This document shows positions 24,179 to 42,672 of a stretch of DNA of 64,000 bases, piece after piece. The stretch's first letter is position 1. Every line of letters begins with the position of its first letter. The position numbers were made by a program, and so were the translations under genes. The notes beneath the pieces are model-generated. The model saw only the letters and a program-made list of their open reading frames with translations, searched no databases and was not told where the DNA came from. Source of the DNA: Vibrio sp. SS-MA-C1-2 (GTDB taxonomy: Bacteria > Pseudomonadota > Gammaproteobacteria > Enterobacterales > Vibrionaceae). The stretch lies in the NCBI RefSeq assembly GCF_021513135.1, contig NZ_CP090981.1:2046001-2110000 (forward strand), read 5' to 3'.

Positions 24179-26182
24179 ATGAAAAAAAATATTTTTAAAC
24201 TTTCTGCATTAACAGTTTTAGTGGCTGGGGCTTTACCTGCTCAGGCTGCACTTTATAAAGTTGTGGAGGTTAATCCTTCTTCGAGTGACACGAGTATCAA
24301 TACATATGGTCAAGGAATTGGTCCCTCTGCTATTTCTACTAGCTGTTTTGCCGATGGTGCAAATTGTGGCGACGCTGATGATACATCAGTTGTTGGTCAA
24401 ACTCTATCCGCAGACCCAGGAATGGATTTACAAGATACTTTCCCATTCCTTTATGATTTTGATTACACAATCAATAGTGAATCTGACTTCCGAAGCGTTT
24501 GTTATACCTTACATGATTGGGATAGTGACCTTTGTGATGATTGGGCAAATCGTAAATATTATGGTGTTTTAGATAACGGTAATGCAGCTGACTCTGGTGA
24601 TTTTGATGATGGAACAGCAACCATTGGTGGTTATGTTAAATATTATCAAGCTTGGGTTAATGGGTACCAATCTCTTGGTAATGCCTTATTAGATAGTGAT
24701 ATATCAATTTCTCCTTTTGCAAATGGTAGTGCAGTCGATGGCAATAATCCAACTGGTGTAGCAATTACTAACTCTAATGAGTCAATTTTGAATGCTACAA
24801 ATGGAACCTATTCGGTTGGTACAGGTAGCTCGGCTTATTTTGACTCTGGAAGCGTTAATGCAAGAGCATTTGCTAAACGTGGTTTTGTGACTGATTCTGA
24901 CGGTGCTGTTATTTCAGAATTGTTACCTGATCAAGCGGCAACTGATGGAACAAATATCACTGGTCAATCAACCGCAAATACAGTCGTAAATGATGGTACT
25001 GACACTTATGTATTCGGCTCTGCATCAGTTACACTTTTTGATACTACTGATGGTGATAAGTTAGATAGTAATGATTCGGATCGAGGTATAAATATCCAAG
25101 ATGGTAGTAATTTATCTTACTGTTTAGGGGCAACCACTGGTTCGGTATATGCTTATCAAGCTTGTCAATATTTAGGGTTTGCGAACCAAGCTGCGGGTTG
25201 GAAAATTGCTGGTTCATCTAATACTTTAACGCCTTTCTTTATTGCAGATAATTGGGGGACGAATGGCTCTATTACAGGTAATAGAGATGAAGCTTCCCCA
25301 CAAGCTGCAATATTAGGTGCAAATACAAGTTTAAATCTTGTTGGTTATTCCACTTATGACTGGGATGACTTAGATGGTGACGATGGCGATCGTTTCCGTG
25401 CATTCGCAACGTATTACACTTACTCTGGAGATGGAAGTACTGACTCTTGGAGCTCAACACGAATTCCAATGGATGTTGAATCTGATGGTGATCTAAAATA
25501 TAACTTCTCTGTCGCTAATGATATTAATGAAGATAACGTGATTGTTGGTAGTGCACAATATTATTTAAGAGAATCTCGTGCGATTCCAGAGGTTTCATAT
25601 ATTTATAAAGCAGAAGATAGTAGTGTTACTTACTTTAATAATATAGATTCTTCGATCTTTTTTGATGGTTCTAGTAGTGTAGCAAAAGCGATAAATAATC
25701 GTGACCAAGTAGTGGGCTGGGTTGATGTTGACACCAATGCTGAAGTTGATGGCAAGTCACGTCGTCAACGAGGGTACATATTAAGAGCTGATTCCTTATA
25801 TAATATTGATGATGGTGATAGTTCTGCATTCGGTGATAAGAAAGTCTATATGTTAGATGATCTCACCAATGGTACTGGTGCTGAATCAGATGCAAATGAT
25901 TTCCGAATTGCTCAAGCTACGGATATCAACGATGCCGGTGTCATTTCTGCTTCAGCACTAAAGTGTGAAGGCGGTTACTCTGATACTTATAGCGATTCAA
26001 CCTGTAGTACAACAGAAACTGTGGTTGCAGTTAAGTTGATTCCTATTTCTGATTCAGGGAACAGAGATATTGAACCTCGTGGTAAATCACCACAGACAAC
26101 TGAACGTTCTGGTGCTTCATTGGGTTGGTTAGGTTTGATCTCATTAATGGGTTTATTTGGCTTTAGACGTCGAATTAAATAA
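24179..26182 (+). CDS. DUF3466 exported protein with a GlyGly-CTERM-like tail
   Basis: 667 residues from the ATG at 24179; an ATG at 24164 overlaps the uup end, but the second Met begins a clean signal peptide (about 23 residues, MKKNIFKLSAL ... PAQA). The mature part is rich in Asp, Ser, Gly and Asn and contains repeated short units such as DINEDNVIVG, AINNRDQVVGW and DINDAGVISA, the phrase typical of DUF3466. The C-terminus SGASLGWLGLISLMG followed by RRR looks like a GlyGly-CTERM sorting signal (Gly/Ser motif, hydrophobic helix, basic end), handled by rhombosortase in Vibrionaceae. Function unknown; probably surface or outer-membrane associated. Confidence 0.8.
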   Translation: MKKNIFKLSALTVLVAGALPAQAALYKVVEVNPSSSDTSINTYGQGIGPSAISTSCFADGANCGDADDTSVVGQTLSADPGMDLQDTFPFLYDFDYTINSESDFRSVCYTLHDWDSDLCDDWANRKYYGVLDNGNAADSGDFDDGTATIGGYVKYYQAWVNGYQSLGNALLDSDISISPFANGSAVDGNNPTGVAITNSNESILNATNGTYSVGTGSSAYFDSGSVNARAFAKRGFVTDSDGAVISELLPDQAATDGTNITGQSTANTVVNDGTDTYVFGSASVTLFDTTDGDKLDSNDSDRGINIQDGSNLSYCLGATTGSVYAYQACQYLGFANQAAGWKIAGSSNTLTPFFIADNWGTNGSITGNRDEASPQAAILGANTSLNLVGYSTYDWDDLDGDDGDRFRAFATYYTYSGDGSTDSWSSTRIPMDVESDGDLKYNFSVANDINEDNVIVGSAQYYLRESRAIPEVSYIYKAEDSSVTYFNNIDSSIFFDGSSSVAKAINNRDQVVGWVDVDTNAEVDGKSRRQRGYILRADSLYNIDDGDSSAFGDKKVYMLDDLTNGTGAESDANDFRIAQATDINDAGVISASALKCEGGYSDTYSDSTCSTTETVVAVKLIPISDSGNRDIEPRGKSPQTTERSGASLGWLGLISLMGLFGFRRRIK

Positions 26183-32982: not shown

Positions 32983-33402
32983 ATGAAGTATCAACAACTG
33001 GATAATCTGGAAGCTGGCTGGAAGTGGCAATATTTATATAAAAAGCATCTAGCTGGTGAAAGAGTCACTCGCTATATCGACTCAAGTGAGATATCTTTCT
33101 ATATTGAATCATTAATTAAAATTGAACATCAACCGACACTAGTTTTAGCTTGGATAGATCAACATTTAAATCCAGAGCTTAATAATAAACTGAAGCAAGC
33201 TATTCGAGCTAAAAGAAAACGCCACTTTAATGCAGAACAAGAACATACAAAAAAGAAATCAATAGACTTAGATTATCGAGTATGGGAACGTTTATCTGAA
33301 AAAGCCAACTCTTTAGATTCAACACTATCGGATACCATTGATTACTTATTATCTGAACTAAACCATTCTATTGATCAAGATTATGATAATGAATTAAATT
33401 AA
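32983..33402 (+). CDS. matP: Macrodomain Ter protein MatP
   Basis: 139 residues; E. coli MatP has 150. It binds matS sites and compacts the chromosome terminus, linking it to the divisome through ZapB. The N-terminal segment MKYQQLDNLEAGWKWQYL and the basic KQAIRAKRKRHFNAEQEHTK are near-identical to the E. coli protein, followed by a ribbon-helix-helix (KKSIDLDYRVWERLSEKA). The C-terminal coiled coil is about ten residues shorter than in E. coli. It is divergent from ycbZ and precedes a DUF3634 gene by 13 bases. Confidence 0.95.
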   Translation: MKYQQLDNLEAGWKWQYLYKKHLAGERVTRYIDSSEISFYIESLIKIEHQPTLVLAWIDQHLNPELNNKLKQAIRAKRKRHFNAEQEHTKKKSIDLDYRVWERLSEKANSLDSTLSDTIDYLLSELNHSIDQDYDNELN

Positions 33403-33909: not shown

Positions 33910-33922
33910 GTGACAGCGTCAC
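33910..33922. other. matS site (MatP binding), exact consensus
   Basis: GTGACAGCGTCAC fits GTGACRNYGTCAC at every position. It is 0.5 kb from matP and 1.35 kb from the dif-like site. Known role of matS: anchoring MatP to define the terminus macrodomain. Confidence 0.85.
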
Positions 33923-34151: not shown

Positions 34152-34876
34152 TTGAAAGGCGTTAAAAGAAGGATAAATCGTGTCGATCTTAATATTGATG
34201 ATACCGGTGTCATTAAAAAAGAACGAAGAAAAGTCCCATCAAAGCCACCTAAAAATAGCCATATTTTAGACTCAATTCTTCTACAAGTTGAAATGAAAAA
34301 TGAGATATTAAGCCTAATTTTAAAGATGCAAGCAATAACAGGATTACGTTTTAGCGATGCGTCATGGTTACGATTTGATGATGTTATTGAGGATAATCGT
34401 TATAAAGATAAGTTTATTGTTTATCAACAAAAGTTATTTAATTCAGCTTTGACAAGATTGAAAAAAAGAACCAGAATAGGGAAGAGCCTTTATCTTTGGC
34501 CAATATGAAAACCATCGCAAAAAAACGATCTTCAGTTACGATATATATTACAAAACAAGTCATCGATGTTATTGAAGAGACAAAATATTTAAATCGTAAT
34601 AATGAATTTATGTTTGCTAATCATCATCACCATAGTGCTGGGTTACCAATGAATATTCGTTCTGCAAATGATATATTACGAGATGTTGGTGAGAAATTAA
34701 AACTGGATGCATTAGGAACTCACTCAATGCGCCATTATTATGCCGAATCATTAATTCGCAGTGGTGCAAATCCCGTACAAGTCAAAGATCTGTTAGGTCA
34801 ACGTTCTTTAAACTCAACTCAAGTTTATCTGAGTACCCAAGATGAAGAGTTAAAGGCTTTAGTTGAGTTACTTTAG
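34152..34876 (+). pseudogene. Short tyrosine recombinase, frameshifted at a run of seven A
   Basis: Two overlapping frames together encode a tyrosine recombinase catalytic domain. The first (from a TTG at 34152, good AAAAAGGGAG ribosome site) holds the first active-site Arg, Arg66 in ITGLRFSDASWLRF. The second frame holds HSMRHYYAE (His and second Arg) and LLGQRSLNSTQVYLS with the Tyr nucleophile; the usual LGH is LGQ. Adding one A to the seven at 34461-34467 joins them seamlessly (RLKKKNQNREEPLSLANMK). The repaired protein is about 241 residues and lacks the N-terminal core-binding domain; a stop sits just upstream of the TTG. It lies 0.4 kb from the dif-like site. It may be a true pseudogene, a sequencing error, or expressed by slippage. 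Confidence 0.75.
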
Positions 34877-34944: not shown

Positions 34945-35190
34945 TTAGATAAAGTATCTAAAGTTATCGTGATACCAGTGGTTAGTTGATTTTCCACTCT
35001 GACCATGAGCTAGTCCCGAAGCAACGTTAGTTTGAAGCTTAATTAATAAACGACGAATTTGACGAGTTGATAGATTCAATAGTTTTGCAGCATCGGTTTG
35101 TTTTAATCGTTTATTGAGAACATCTTGGAGGACTTTAAACCGATTTATTTCATTATTAGACATAGTAATTAGCATCCGGTTTTTCCTCAT
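34945..35190 (-). pseudogene. Truncated ISNCY-type transposase, N-terminal fragment
   Basis: 81 residues. MSNNEINRFKVLQDVLNKRL then KQTDAAKLLNLSTRQIRRLL is the helix-turn-helix start of ISNCY-family transposases, followed by ASGLAHGQSGK. Full-length members exceed 400 residues, so only the DNA-binding N-terminus remains. The reading ends in unrelated residues at 34945. Confidence 0.75.
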
Positions 35191-35255
35191 TAATGATTAA
35201 TACATTAATCATAAGAGGACATTTTAAAAATGGGCAAACCGGACATTACTAAATT
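34945..35255 (-). mobile_element. Insertion sequence remnant next to the dif-like site
   Basis: Comprises the truncated transposase plus its upstream leader. On the minus strand the leader begins about 35255 with AATGTCCGGTTTGCCC, a plausible left terminal end, and includes a palindrome (ATGATTAAT/ATTAATCAT, 35193-35212) before the transposase start. A related CCGG word recurs at 35176-35179. The right end is gone. The exact boundary is uncertain by a few bases. Confidence 0.55.
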
Positions 35256-35269
35256 GCAGTTACACAAAT

Positions 35270-35297
35270 AATGCGTATAATGTATATTATGTTAAAT
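35270..35297 (+). other. dif: dif chromosome dimer resolution site (XerC/XerD)
   Basis: 28 bases in dif layout: left arm AATGCGTATAA, centre TGTATA, right arm TTATGTTAAAT. Against E. coli dif as I know it, the centre and the XerD arm are identical and the XerC arm differs at three positions (1, 2 and 7), giving 25 of 28. Neighbouring matP and matS sites agree with a terminus location. XerC and XerD recombine here, activated by FtsK, to resolve chromosome dimers. Confidence 0.92.
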
Positions 35298-35370
35298 ACT
35301 GTGTGAGTTAAGATAACAGCTTTGTTGTCCTACTCGTCATTTATACAGTTTATCATTCAGATTTCCTCCA

Positions 35371-35383
35371 TATTTAACATAAT
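35371..35383 (-). repeat. Inverted copy of the dif XerD half-site
   Basis: The 13 bases are the exact reverse complement of 35286-35298, which covers the XerD arm of dif, with 72 bases between. The sequence beyond (35384-35399) does not resemble a XerC arm, so only half a site is present. Confidence 0.65.
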
Positions 35384-35503
35384 TTCTATTTACCATAAAA
35401 TAGCTAATCTACATTAATATTTAATAGATTGAAATGATACCTTCGCTATCATTTCTACTATTCAATATCTTTGTAATTAGCTTCAATATATAAGTATTAG
35501 TTA

Positions 35504-35535
35504 AATAAAAAAGCATATCGACAAAGATATGCTTT
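35504..35535 (-). terminator. Terminator for the His/Met-rich protein gene
   Basis: AAAGCATATC (35510-35519) and GATATGCTTT (35526-35535) form a 10-bp stem with a six-base loop; on the minus strand a T-rich tract follows. Confidence 0.75.
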
Positions 35536-35654
35536 CATGAAATTTATTAATACTAAAACAACGCGAGATCAAATTACTAAAGATCCTAAGTTGATAATTA
35601 TATCCATTATTATAAATGATTAAATTTACGAATAATGGCTAGAATCAAAGTACA

Positions 35655-36245
35655 TTACTTCACTTGACCATCAGCAGTAAAAACAACGTTATAATTTTTA
35701 TCGTTTATTGCTATCTCCATTTTCCAGTCCATGGTTGGATGCATACAGGCTGGAACAGAAAAATTCGCAATAACTTGGTTATCTTCATTAATGGTAAACT
35801 GTAATGGAATTTTCCCCATATCCATGGAGACACCTTCAATGATTCCACCTTTTGGAACTTCCGATAAACCTGACACAACGAGTTCTACTGGTTGCATTGG
35901 TTTGACTCTTTTCGTATCAAGATGAAAGTTAATCTCATGAGTACCATTTTTTACAATACAATGCCCATCAACCATTTTACATCCATTTTTAAATTCTAAA
36001 CCTGTTGTCTCTGCCATTGGCTTCATTTTATGATTTGAGTGATCCATTATTTCATTCTTATGACCATTCATATCGTTAACCCCATTATGGTTATCATGTA
36101 CAACATGAGTTGTGACTTTCTCAGTTGTTACGTTGTCACCTGAGCTTGCTGTTTCAGGGCTCTTCCATATATAAAGACAGATTAAGACAATTAGCATAAC
36201 AATTATTTGTATTAAACGACCTTTGGTCAATTTCTGTGCTGGCAT
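35655..36245 (-). CDS. Membrane-anchored His/Met-rich periplasmic protein, probable copper binder
   Basis: 196 residues; no family recognised. One transmembrane helix near the N-terminus (about 11-27, IQIIVMLIVLICLYIW) is followed by a His/Met/Asn/Asp-rich segment (about 47-78, with HVVHDNHNG, HKNEIMDHSNHKM). A beta-rich domain follows (about 84-196) with a Cys pair (CKMVDGHC) and a second Met/His/Cys cluster, VSMDMGK and ACMHPTMDWKM. Such His/Met motifs usually bind copper in the periplasm. It is divergent from ccoN, whose product needs a copper cofactor, so a role in copper supply or defence during cbb3 oxidase assembly is a reasonable inference. Confidence 0.6.
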   Translation of the reverse strand: MPAQKLTKGRLIQIIVMLIVLICLYIWKSPETASSGDNVTTEKVTTHVVHDNHNGVNDMNGHKNEIMDHSNHKMKPMAETTGLEFKNGCKMVDGHCIVKNGTHEINFHLDTKRVKPMQPVELVVSGLSEVPKGGIIEGVSMDMGKIPLQFTINEDNQVIANFSVPACMHPTMDWKMEIAINDKNYNVVFTADGQVK

Positions 36246-40282: not shown

Positions 40283-42672
40283 GTAAAGATTGTTATCACT
40301 GTGCTGAACCCATCCCAAAAGGATTTCAACAATCTATCGAAATCCTTGGTGAAGAACGAGAGATGTGTTGCATCGGTTGTCATGCTGTTGCTACAACCAT
40401 CGTTGAAAGCGGCTTAACGTCTTATTATCAATATAGAACGGAAACAGCCACTAAAACCGATTTAATTCCTGATGAGCTTAATAATTTAATTCATTATGAT
40501 CATGAAGAAGTACAGCTAGACTTTGTGCGTAATAATCAAAACCTAAAAGAAGTGACACTGTCACTTGAAGGTGTCTCTTGTGCAGCTTGTGCTTGGTTAA
40601 TTGAAAAGCAATTATTTAACGTTAGCGGGATTCAATTTGTTGGTGTCAACACGGCAACTCATCGAGCTATTATTCGTTGGGATCCAGAAAAAATAAAACT
40701 CAGTGATATTTTACGACGAATTCAACAGATTGGTTATAAAGCTGCACCATTTGAAGCGAATCAACAAGAGCAGCTCTACCATAAACAAATGAAGCAGTAT
40801 CTTTATCGTTTAGGTATTGCCGGAATTGCAACAATGCAAGTAATGATGCTTGCTGTTGCGCTCTATTTTGAACTATTTAGTGATCTTGACCAGGAATTTA
40901 AAGCTTACCTTCGCTGGATCAGTCTTATTTTCGCCACACCAGTCCTACTCTACTCTGCTCAACCTTTCTATATCAACGCTTGGCGAAACTTAAAAGCAAG
41001 AACTTTAGGAATGGATGTTCCGGTTTCTATTGCGCTTCTCATCGCCTACTTTTCAAGTGTTATTGCCACCATGACTGAGCAAGGTGAAGTCTATTTCGAA
41101 TCTGTCTCTATGTTTACTTTCTTCCTATTAATGGGACGTTATCTAGAGATGCGAGCAAGAAGAAAAGCCGCCGCAGCCAGCGCCAATTTACTTAAATTAA
41201 TCCCTTCAATGGCACAGCTTGAAGATGGTAGTAAAATTGCTGCAAAGACATTGATTATCGGCCAACGCGTCATTGTCAAACCGGGTGAGAACTTCCCTGC
41301 TGACGGTATTATTATACAAGGTGATACCAGCGTTGATGAGTCTATGTTAACGGGTGAATCGGTTCATATAAATAAAATTGTTAATGATCCTGTTTTTGCC
41401 GGAACCATCAATGGTGATGGTAATGTGACTGTCGAAGTCACTGAAACAACACAACAATCATTAGTTTCTAAAATTATTCAGTTACAAGATGAAGCGCAAC
41501 TTTCAAAACCTCAAGTTGCTACCTTAGCTGATAATATATCTCGCTACTTTGTTGCCATCATCTTAGTCATTTCGTTAGGAACTTGGCTCTATTGGCACTT
41601 TCATCATCCTGAAGATGCATTTTGGATCATGCTATCTGTATTAGTTGCGACTTGTCCTTGCGCATTATCTTTAGCGACGCCAACAGCCATTACATGCTCG
41701 ACATCAAGTATGGGTGAATTAGGCATTTTATTAAGAAAAGGTCATGTACTTGAAACATTATGTAAGGTAAATAGGCTCGTTATCGATAAAACAGGAACCT
41801 TAACCGAAGGTAATATCAAACTTGTTGATACCGAACTATTTTCACATTATTCACAACAACAAGCATTAGCGATAGCTGCAGGGTTAGAACGCTTTGCGAA
41901 TCACCCAATAGCCAATACCTTTACACCTTATTACTCGCAACAAATTCAATTCCAGCAGGTCAATAATGAGATTGGTTTAGGATTAAATGGTCAATTAGAC
42001 AATGATCATTGGCGTATAGGCCGATTAGAATATGCAATTGAACCCTCATACCTTGATGAATTAAAGGCTAAACATCAACAAGCTGAAATGCAAGTTTGGC
42101 TTTCTTGTAATGGCGAACCTGTTGCTCAATTTATTTTACAAGATCCAATTCGATCAGAAAGTGCAGAATTTATTGCTCAATGCCAACAACAAGGTATTAC
42201 GGTAACTATGTTAACCGGTGATAGCAGTCATGCTGCACAATCTGTAGCCAAAAAACTCAATATTGATGAGTTAGTTTCGGGGGTATCACCACAACAGAAA
42301 TTAGCGTATTTACAAAACTTACCGAAAGATCAAGTAAGCTTAATGGTAGGTGATGGTGTTAATGATGCTCCCGTATTAGCTGGCGCTCACCTCTCTGTTG
42401 CGATGGGAGGAGGAACCGATATTGCTAAATCTTCAGCAGACATGATTTTATTAGGCGATGACTTATTAAAATTGCTGAAAGCTAAAAAGTTAGCCCAATT
42501 TAGTCGTAAAATTATTCGTCAAAACTTAGCATGGGCTTTAGGCTATAACATTACTATTTTGCCATTGGCTTGCGCAGGTTTAGTCATTCCTTATATTGCA
42601 GTAATAGGCATGTCACTCAGTTCACTGCTTGTCGTCTCAAATTCATTACGACTGTTAAAAGGAAAATCATAA
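40279..42672 (+). CDS. ccoI: Copper-exporting P1B-type ATPase of the cbb3 cluster
   Basis: 797 residues. It supplies copper for cbb3 oxidase assembly. The N-terminal Cys-rich region (Cys5/8, Cys30/31/34) precedes an HMA domain with the metal motif CAAC at Cys101/104. The membrane metal site CPC is at 459-461, the phosphorylation motif DKTGT at Asp503, the phosphatase-like MLTGDS and the hinge GDGVNDAPVLAGA follow. An exact matS consensus lies within the coding sequence at 40552. The start overlaps ccoH and the stop overlaps ccoS, so the unit is translationally coupled. Confidence 0.95.
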   Translation: MSKDCYHCAEPIPKGFQQSIEILGEEREMCCIGCHAVATTIVESGLTSYYQYRTETATKTDLIPDELNNLIHYDHEEVQLDFVRNNQNLKEVTLSLEGVSCAACAWLIEKQLFNVSGIQFVGVNTATHRAIIRWDPEKIKLSDILRRIQQIGYKAAPFEANQQEQLYHKQMKQYLYRLGIAGIATMQVMMLAVALYFELFSDLDQEFKAYLRWISLIFATPVLLYSAQPFYINAWRNLKARTLGMDVPVSIALLIAYFSSVIATMTEQGEVYFESVSMFTFFLLMGRYLEMRARRKAAAASANLLKLIPSMAQLEDGSKIAAKTLIIGQRVIVKPGENFPADGIIIQGDTSVDESMLTGESVHINKIVNDPVFAGTINGDGNVTVEVTETTQQSLVSKIIQLQDEAQLSKPQVATLADNISRYFVAIILVISLGTWLYWHFHHPEDAFWIMLSVLVATCPCALSLATPTAITCSTSSMGELGILLRKGHVLETLCKVNRLVIDKTGTLTEGNIKLVDTELFSHYSQQQALAIAAGLERFANHPIANTFTPYYSQQIQFQQVNNEIGLGLNGQLDNDHWRIGRLEYAIEPSYLDELKAKHQQAEMQVWLSCNGEPVAQFILQDPIRSESAEFIAQCQQQGITVTMLTGDSSHAAQSVAKKLNIDELVSGVSPQQKLAYLQNLPKDQVSLMVGDGVNDAPVLAGAHLSVAMGGGTDIAKSSADMILLGDDLLKLLKAKKLAQFSRKIIRQNLAWALGYNITILPLACAGLVIPYIAVIGMSLSSLLVVSNSLRLLKGKS
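40552..40564. other. matS site (MatP binding), exact consensus, inside ccoI
   Basis: GTGACACTGTCAC fits GTGACRNYGTCAC at every position. It encodes part of the protein (VTLSL), so it must satisfy both the code and MatP binding. It is 6.6 kb from the site at 33910. Confidence 0.75.

Follow-up and report, generated by a model that had tools for sequence, protein, structure and literature searches.

The locus

The window considered here is a stretch of 64 kb, positions 2046001-2110000 of C2, the larger chromosome (3.07 Mb) of a genome that also comprises C1 (1.04 Mb) and a contig whose length, by subtraction, is 0.22 Mb. It contains a 28-bp dif site, dif1, which is followed on the side of its XerD arm by a second element, here called the companion. 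An earlier sequence-only reading of this DNA had covered dif alone, and the companion is an addition to it. Together, dif and companion make up a unit of 213 bp: behind dif come a variable spacer, the inverted boxes A and B, and a stem-loop. The features of the locus are the following:

32983..33402, plus strand: matP (Pfam MatP, 2.8e-39; MatP_C, 2.8e-19)
33910..33922: matS GTGACAGCGTCAC, exact match
35270..35297, plus strand: dif1, whole 28-mer AATGCGTATAATGTATATTATGTTAAAT
35270-35280: XerC arm of dif1
35281-35286: central region of dif1, TGTATA
35287-35297: XerD arm of dif1, TTATGTTAAAT
35298..35301, plus strand: tetranucleotide adjoining the XerD arm, hypervariable in relatives
35298..35387: spacer from dif to box B, 90 bp here and 48-181 bp over 69 sites
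35372..35382, minus strand: box A ATTTAACATAA, an exact XerD arm, inverted
35388..35402, plus strand: box B ATTTACCATAAAATA, the most conserved part of the companion
35388..35415, minus strand: inverted dif-like 28-mer AATGTAGATTA-GCTATT-TTATGGTAAAT, with its XerD arm inside box B
35402..35482, minus strand: long imperfect stem-loop of 81 nt adjoining box B
35509..35536, minus strand: intrinsic-terminator-like site, apart from the stem-loop and between it and the leftward ORF
35655..36245, minus strand: leftward ORF of 196 aa, the first listed ORF to the right of the element
40552..40564: matS GTGACACTGTCAC, exact match

dif1 and its chromosomal setting

Chromosome dimers are resolved at dif, by XerCD recombination that FtsK activates. 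The sequence at 35270-35297 has the layout of such a site, with two inverted arms of 11 bp, a 6-bp centre and a conserved XerD arm. It had been described as sharing 25 of 28 positions with E. coli dif, the centre TGTATA and the XerD arm being identical; the E. coli query was located exactly in MG1655, and the comparison with that site gives the same 25/28 and the same two identities. The runner-up in the 64-kb window matches at 18/28. Two degenerate patterns, run over the whole genome with up to three mismatches, find this single site on C2, and hence none better elsewhere on that chromosome, a sole match on C1 (dif2, C1:111742-111769) and no dif-like site on the third contig. In a profile search, the genome encodes XerD (386.6 bits, cut-off 329.6), XerC (371.2 bits, cut-off 335.15) and an FtsK_gamma domain (3.6e-25).

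The surroundings of dif1 are those of a terminus. The neighbourhood of matP and two exact matS sequences, already pointed out in the sequence-only reading, stands with matP at 32983-33402 and the matS sites at 33910 and 40552. Named relatives of this MatP belong to the Vibrionaceae without exception among the best 80 of 176, with identities of 67-73%, which supports the assignment of the genome to that family. There are eight GTGACNNNGTCAC matS sites in the 400 kb around dif1 and no exact one in the 400 kb of C1 that were sampled (20 pieces of 20 kb, including that of dif2 at 104-124 kb). In the 400 kb around dif1 the cumulative GC skew is maximal 8.1 kb to the right of the site, so the expected switch lies near dif1 and not at it; such a distance between the skew shift-point and dif is usual, according to the available part of PMC3025954. 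The polarity of GGGNAGG flips around dif1 over the same 400 kb (21 plus and 1 minus to the left, 9 plus and 23 minus to the right). The strict 8-mer GGGNAGGG is less clear and mixed to the right (5 plus and 0 minus on the left, 4 plus and 3 minus on the right). Hand counts of this 8-mer along C2, among the matches listed, gave 16 minus and 3 plus at 0.05-0.53 Mb, 48 plus and 3 minus at 0.585-2.00 Mb, and 4 of each at 2.10-2.36 Mb; many of these sites occur as repeated triplets with a fixed spacing, which were taken for putative rRNA operons. From this KOPS-like polarity, which on the right arm rests on the 7-mer GGGNAGG, an origin can be placed near 0.55 Mb, half a chromosome away from dif1 (2.08 Mb). 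The site lies near a switch, opposite this origin, that is clear for the 7-mer and the skew. In the 20 samples from C1, the skew turns from plus to minus between those at 52 and 156 kb, around dif2, and KOPS-like counts are few and mixed.

It is virtually certain that 35270-35297 is dif1, the dif of C2, and as the sole C2 match, near matP, matS and the switch of skew and KOPS-like motifs, it serves as the terminus marker that it had been claimed to be. Its function would be the resolution of C2 dimers, as taken from established knowledge of dif. Phages and islands do integrate at dif in the Vibrionaceae (PMC11630473, in the part available; also the viral contigs and inserts described below), and the 28-mer might on that ground be the relic of a phage attachment site and no working dif; this is scarcely credible for the only C2 site at up to three mismatches, near the skew switch and with canonical arms. 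As a dif site, dif1 is ordinary, because near-identical sites are present in 289 of 296 genomes of the family, mostly two in each when judged by eye.

The left flank has features of its own. The stretch 34960-35269 contains a short helix-turn-helix ORF on the minus strand (HTH_23, 1.4e-4, below the cut-off), and an end that reads ...GTTACA five bases before the XerC arm of dif1. By resemblance it is a probable remnant of an IS1202-type insertion sequence; IS1202-family elements occur 5 bp from the XerC arm of dif, as stated in the accessible portion of PMC10132070. Judged by eye, several relatives have a similar end to the left of dif, and dif2 has one too. Further left is what looks like a single broken tyrosine recombinase, in two overlapping ORF pieces (34152-34876) of which only the second has a Phage_integrase match (1.2e-14). 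On C1, recombinase-like matches lie 2-4 kb from dif2 (108188-108946 and 114081-114356).

Organization of the companion element

Boxes A and B begin 74 and 90 bp beyond dif1 on its XerD side, and both resemble an inverted XerD arm. Box A, which reproduces the arm exactly in the window, is partly conserved over 142 loci, approximately as ATTNAAC. The reverse complement of box B includes TTATGGTAAAT, identical to the XerD arm at 10 of 11 positions, so box B has the sequence expected of the XerD arm of an inverted XerCD site. The same TTATGGTAAAT is the XerD arm of dif itself in two genomes of a second family (f2), and in genome G001 box B contains the exact XerD arm on both chromosomes. In most species the inverted 28-mer has a weak XerC half, which is partly dictated by the stem: its inner ATTA is mostly kept, and the outer part is variable and tied to the stem. 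This arm is more dif-like in G001 and at two further loci (L289 and L291).

The exact XerD arm occurs three times in the 64 kb, in dif1, in box A and at 24631, the last presumably by chance. With up to one mismatch it was found 8 times against 6.25 expected; it is the cluster of XerD arms at dif1 and not the count over the window, which shows no excess, that stands out. The leftward ORF beyond the element (35655..36245) matches zero Pfam families at E 0.001.

Conservation and distribution

In its own genome, the exact companion pattern is present twice in 4.3 Mb, beside dif1 and beside dif2 only. In other genomes every one of 33 named loci has the companion motif (at least 21/28), with its start 95-192 bp from that of dif; these are the loci with a dif of at least 24/28 and an exact XerD arm in the fetched DNA, the 47 of 80 without one being uncounted. 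In a second set, a companion in the same orientation, which the count demanded, lies at most 250 bp from dif at 69 of 74 dif sites in 39 genomes of the family, those among the matches listed of 71 searched. At the 69 sites its distance from the end of dif is 48-181 bp, with a median of 89, and usually both replicons have it. The two sets overlap, with six identical 200-bp units.

Matches that are dif itself were excluded from the list of elements, in which 79 copies were typed. The dif list excludes the plasmid-type paired sites of G028:C77 and G052:C3, four weak two-mismatch hits (G064:C1:2517439, G023:C12, G056:C1:2487783 and G003:C186), and two G001 hits that are box B. Five of the 74 dif sites have no companion within 250 bp. 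In G056 and G035 it is found beyond inserts of 11.5 and 7 kb, and for two sites of G003 and that of G080:C6 no companion is present on the same contig. Conversely, 10 of the 79 element copies do not adjoin a listed dif. Three of them (G028:C150, G013:C4 and G080:C50) have a dif missed by the pattern 96-128 bp away, start to start, which is outside the 69/74 count; the copies of G056, G035 and G116:C3:999491 are on the far side of inserted DNA; and the other four are matches with one mismatch at other places.

The excluded paired sites constitute a separate observation. Their contigs (loci L113 and L149), of 56 and 92 kb and perhaps plasmids, carry opposed dif-like sites about 175 bp apart in which both XerD arms are TTATGGTAAAT, an arrangement similar to that of pdif modules.

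Over the order, the companion pattern was detected in 21 of 148 genomes: in 8 of 9 from its own family (f1), in 8 of 9 from f2, where it lies beside dif, and as five other matches with one mismatch each and no dif found nearby. The two flanks of dif in E. coli K-12, about 390 bp each, contain no companion. Among 30 dif loci of other families, two of which have less than 300 bp on the left, 27 show no extra XerD arm (at least 10/11) within 300 bp; exceptions are L265, with one extra arm, and L276, where dif is weak, with three.

At the third exception, a locus of a further family (L275, f10), boxes A-B and a GC-rich hairpin are located on the XerC side of dif, after the end of an ORF. Of the loci examined beyond f1 and f2, this is the only one with an A-B arrangement near dif.

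The presence of the companion and its conserved position, orientation and distance are observations, and it is almost certainly real and tied to dif. It is also very probable, if slightly less so, that dif1 is inside a conserved dif-linked unit.

The stem-loop

The stem-loop at 35402-35482 on the minus strand has z-scores of -6.7 (RNA) and -7.8 (DNA), and none of 200 shuffles folded as well. Its 5' arm begins directly after box B, and where pairing is clear the partner arm ends mostly 45-52 or 68-78 nt further on; in f2 the stem is further from box B. In an ungapped 14-bp stem test, 59 of 125 loci reached 11 pairs or more, where shuffles predict about 1.1; the test misses bulged stems, among them that of the window itself (8/14).

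The two arms covary. In 26 stems of equal length, cells with a double change number 43, against a mean of 12.2 and a maximum of 21 in 500 shuffles, which leave the relatedness of the loci in. Watson-Crick pairs occupy 321 of 364 cells, a share that is inflated by the choice of stems with at least 9/14 pairs. The more stable fold is that of the minus strand in 87 of 130 loci and that of the plus strand in 27. Mismatches counted by RNA strand (15 GT, 40 AC and 119 others) also lean to the minus strand, which for related loci is not decisive. The Rfam search returned three hits, all far under the gathering score.

The spacer and its likeness between chromosomes

The two dif sites of a genome differ mostly in their centres, and the DNA behind them can be very similar. 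For 16 genomes that have two dif contexts, presumably on different chromosomes, mean identity over the dif-to-B spacer is 74% within a genome (43 to 98%) versus 58% between genomes. The 200 bp of the right flank are at background (59% within, 60% between), and so are the left 300 bp except in three genomes with 85-99%.

The start of the spacer is hypervariable. Over 31 non-independent locus pairs in which the later spacer is near-identical, the mismatch rate is 0.35-0.55 per position at +1 to +4, then 0.06, 0.06 and 0 at +5 to +7, and 0.29 at +8. To the left of dif, positions -2, -3 and -8 are variable as well. On the other side of the spacer, identity often switches at box B: out of 8256 pairs of loci, 20 are alike on the right side only, 19 in the spacer only and 37 in both. 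Sequence next to dif has been exchanged.

Proposed role of the companion

In the tentatively preferred reading, the companion would be an accessory XerD-binding element of dif, so that dif and companion would act as a composite site. Boxes A and B are predicted to bind XerD, or perhaps XerCD at the inverted dif-like 28-mer, because box A is an exact arm, because box B is one base off and equals the arm in dif of two f2 genomes, and because box B of G001 is an exact arm on both chromosomes. As the central regions differ, the boxes would not recombine with dif. Instead, they might retain recombinase or act as a boundary next to the XerD arm of dif, the side on which FtsK must touch XerD; the stem-loop is likewise predicted to have a role. 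Somewhat more guardedly, this can be extended to the Vibrionaceae and at least one neighbouring family, in which dif would be the left end of a composite site, an accessory or boundary for XerCD/FtsK that is present on each chromosome and kept similar between the two, with dif centres that differ so that no fusion occurs. E. coli dif works without such an element, and since there is no companion near it, the companion is not needed for Xer recombination in general.

Mobile DNA suggests a different origin. Boxes A and B with the stem-loop could be the attachment end of elements that integrate at dif, such as filamentous or tailless prophages and islands with a trio of recombinases, and the host copy a fixed remnant exchanged by newcomers. 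The pattern is found in 55 viral contigs, 52 of which have a dif-type XerD arm 60-164 bp upstream of box B, and the integration of phages and islands at dif in the Vibrionaceae is on record in the text available of PMC11630473. Elements inserted at dif also contain copies of box B or carry them at their edge. The islands present at dif in G011 and G116 encode, next to it, a trio of proteins of 449-813 aa and a small protein (about 150 aa). Pfam Phage_integrase is matched by the whole G116 trio, in two cases below the cut-off, and the G011 proteins were likened to these by length, order and eye. In G011 there is a box B with stem-loop within the island and a second one past it, and G116 has a box B next to dif and a second one past its island. 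The 7-kb insert of G035 carries at its left end the spacer, box A and part of box B, with a break near the arm/centre edge of B. The right junctions of the G011 (L292/L293), G116 (L289) and G035 (L291) inserts show AAGTTAAAT followed by a native-looking spacer, TTAAAT being the end of the XerD arm. In G056, 11.5 kb that, from its ORFs read by eye, may be a tailless or filamentous prophage separates dif from a companion copy with a degraded XerC arm.

These copies in, next to and beyond inserts favour an attachment remnant, as do the switches of identity at box B and the f10 stretch with A-B on the other side of dif. However, one orientation and a distance of 48-181 bp at 69 of 74 sites, with compensatory changes in the stem, are not what a neutral remnant should show, and this alternative is considered somewhat unlikely.

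The stem-loop, together with the T-rich complement of box B on the minus strand, could also be a terminator or insulator that shields dif from leftward transcription. The greater stability of the minus-strand folds is in its favour. So is the leftward direction of the right neighbour in 56 of 61 rows, a count from a mechanical choice of ORF that includes the window twice and takes L002 as rightward despite a nearer, shorter leftward ORF; leading-strand genes would in any case mostly point leftward to the right of dif. The explanation is weakened because a separate terminator-like site (35536-35509; one in 1.7 kb, 0.6 expected from shuffles) precedes the stem-loop. In addition, the stem is AT-rich with just a four-T run behind it, in place of the GC-rich stem and T run of an intrinsic terminator. 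The terminator scan, limited to short loops and less bulged stems, did not call it, and a terminator would need neither a strongly conserved box B nor box A. A shielding function is therefore improbable. Still more doubtful is a plus-strand promoter in A/B that would yield a small structured RNA: TTAACA-16-TAAAAT scores 10/12 as a sigma-70 promoter and ties for the best of the region, but promoter-like sites number 10 against 10.2 expected, the covarying stem begins a few bases past the -10-like hexamer and so before a normal start, no Rfam family fits, and the minus strand folds better.

Whether the accessory XerD-binding element is the right description or not, dif has been held to need no accessory DNA, and a companion on both chromosomes across a family allows this to be tested directly. 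It raises the question of a second XerD site, or a second job of XerD, at the terminus, be it as recombination accessory, boundary or phage landing place. The companion marks an entry point of prophages and islands, and it may help to explain how the surroundings of dif1 and dif2 are exchanged while the centres of the two sites stay different.

Comparison with known systems

In B. subtilis, XerD-binding sites near dif unload SMC. Those sites are, as boxes A and B here, apart from dif and near the terminus. They belong to another phylum with another SMC system.

According to the available portions of PMC2731167 and PMC6549158, a chromosomal dif is a 28-bp site with a conserved XerD arm and a 6-bp centre, present once per chromosome, at a terminus with matS and KOPS. 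E. coli dif and the dif1 and dif2 of Vibrio share with dif1 of the window the 28 bp, the XerD arm, the centre and the place at the terminus. The same part of PMC2731167 presents proteobacterial dif with no apparent specific genetic environment and no required accessory elements, whereas a conserved companion lies behind dif here. No description of the companion was found in the open-access papers searched, although one may exist elsewhere. As far as their accessible text extends, it is not described in PMC10132070, PMC2731167, PMC4246890, PMC2864571, PMC6549158, PMC8826520, PMC10214605, PMC9345347, PMC11630473, PMC12907356 or PMC3025954.

The modules of Acinetobacter, both pdif and those at the chromosomal dif, are also stretches between inversely oriented Xer sites (PMC10132070 and PMC12907356, in the sections available). 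However, they hold genes, while the stretch described here is a spacer of 48-181 bp with a degenerate inner site. The G011 and G116 islands are similar to the SEs with the gene order intA-tfp-intB-srap treated in the available part of PMC10214605, since they have three recombinase-like genes and a small-protein gene in a row and share with SEs a 6-bp sequence common to both junctions. This likeness is one of gene order and description; the islands sit at the XerD arm of dif, which the passages available do not name as an SE target, and the words 'dif site' are absent from both main texts consulted on SEs.

The attP of CTX-phi, compared by its description in the accessible text of PMC4246890 and not by phage sequence, has two inverted dif-like sites about 90 bp apart and a hairpin, as the unit described here. 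In the present unit, by contrast, the working chromosomal dif is itself one of the partners, the stem is outside the pair, and the whole is located in the host chromosome.
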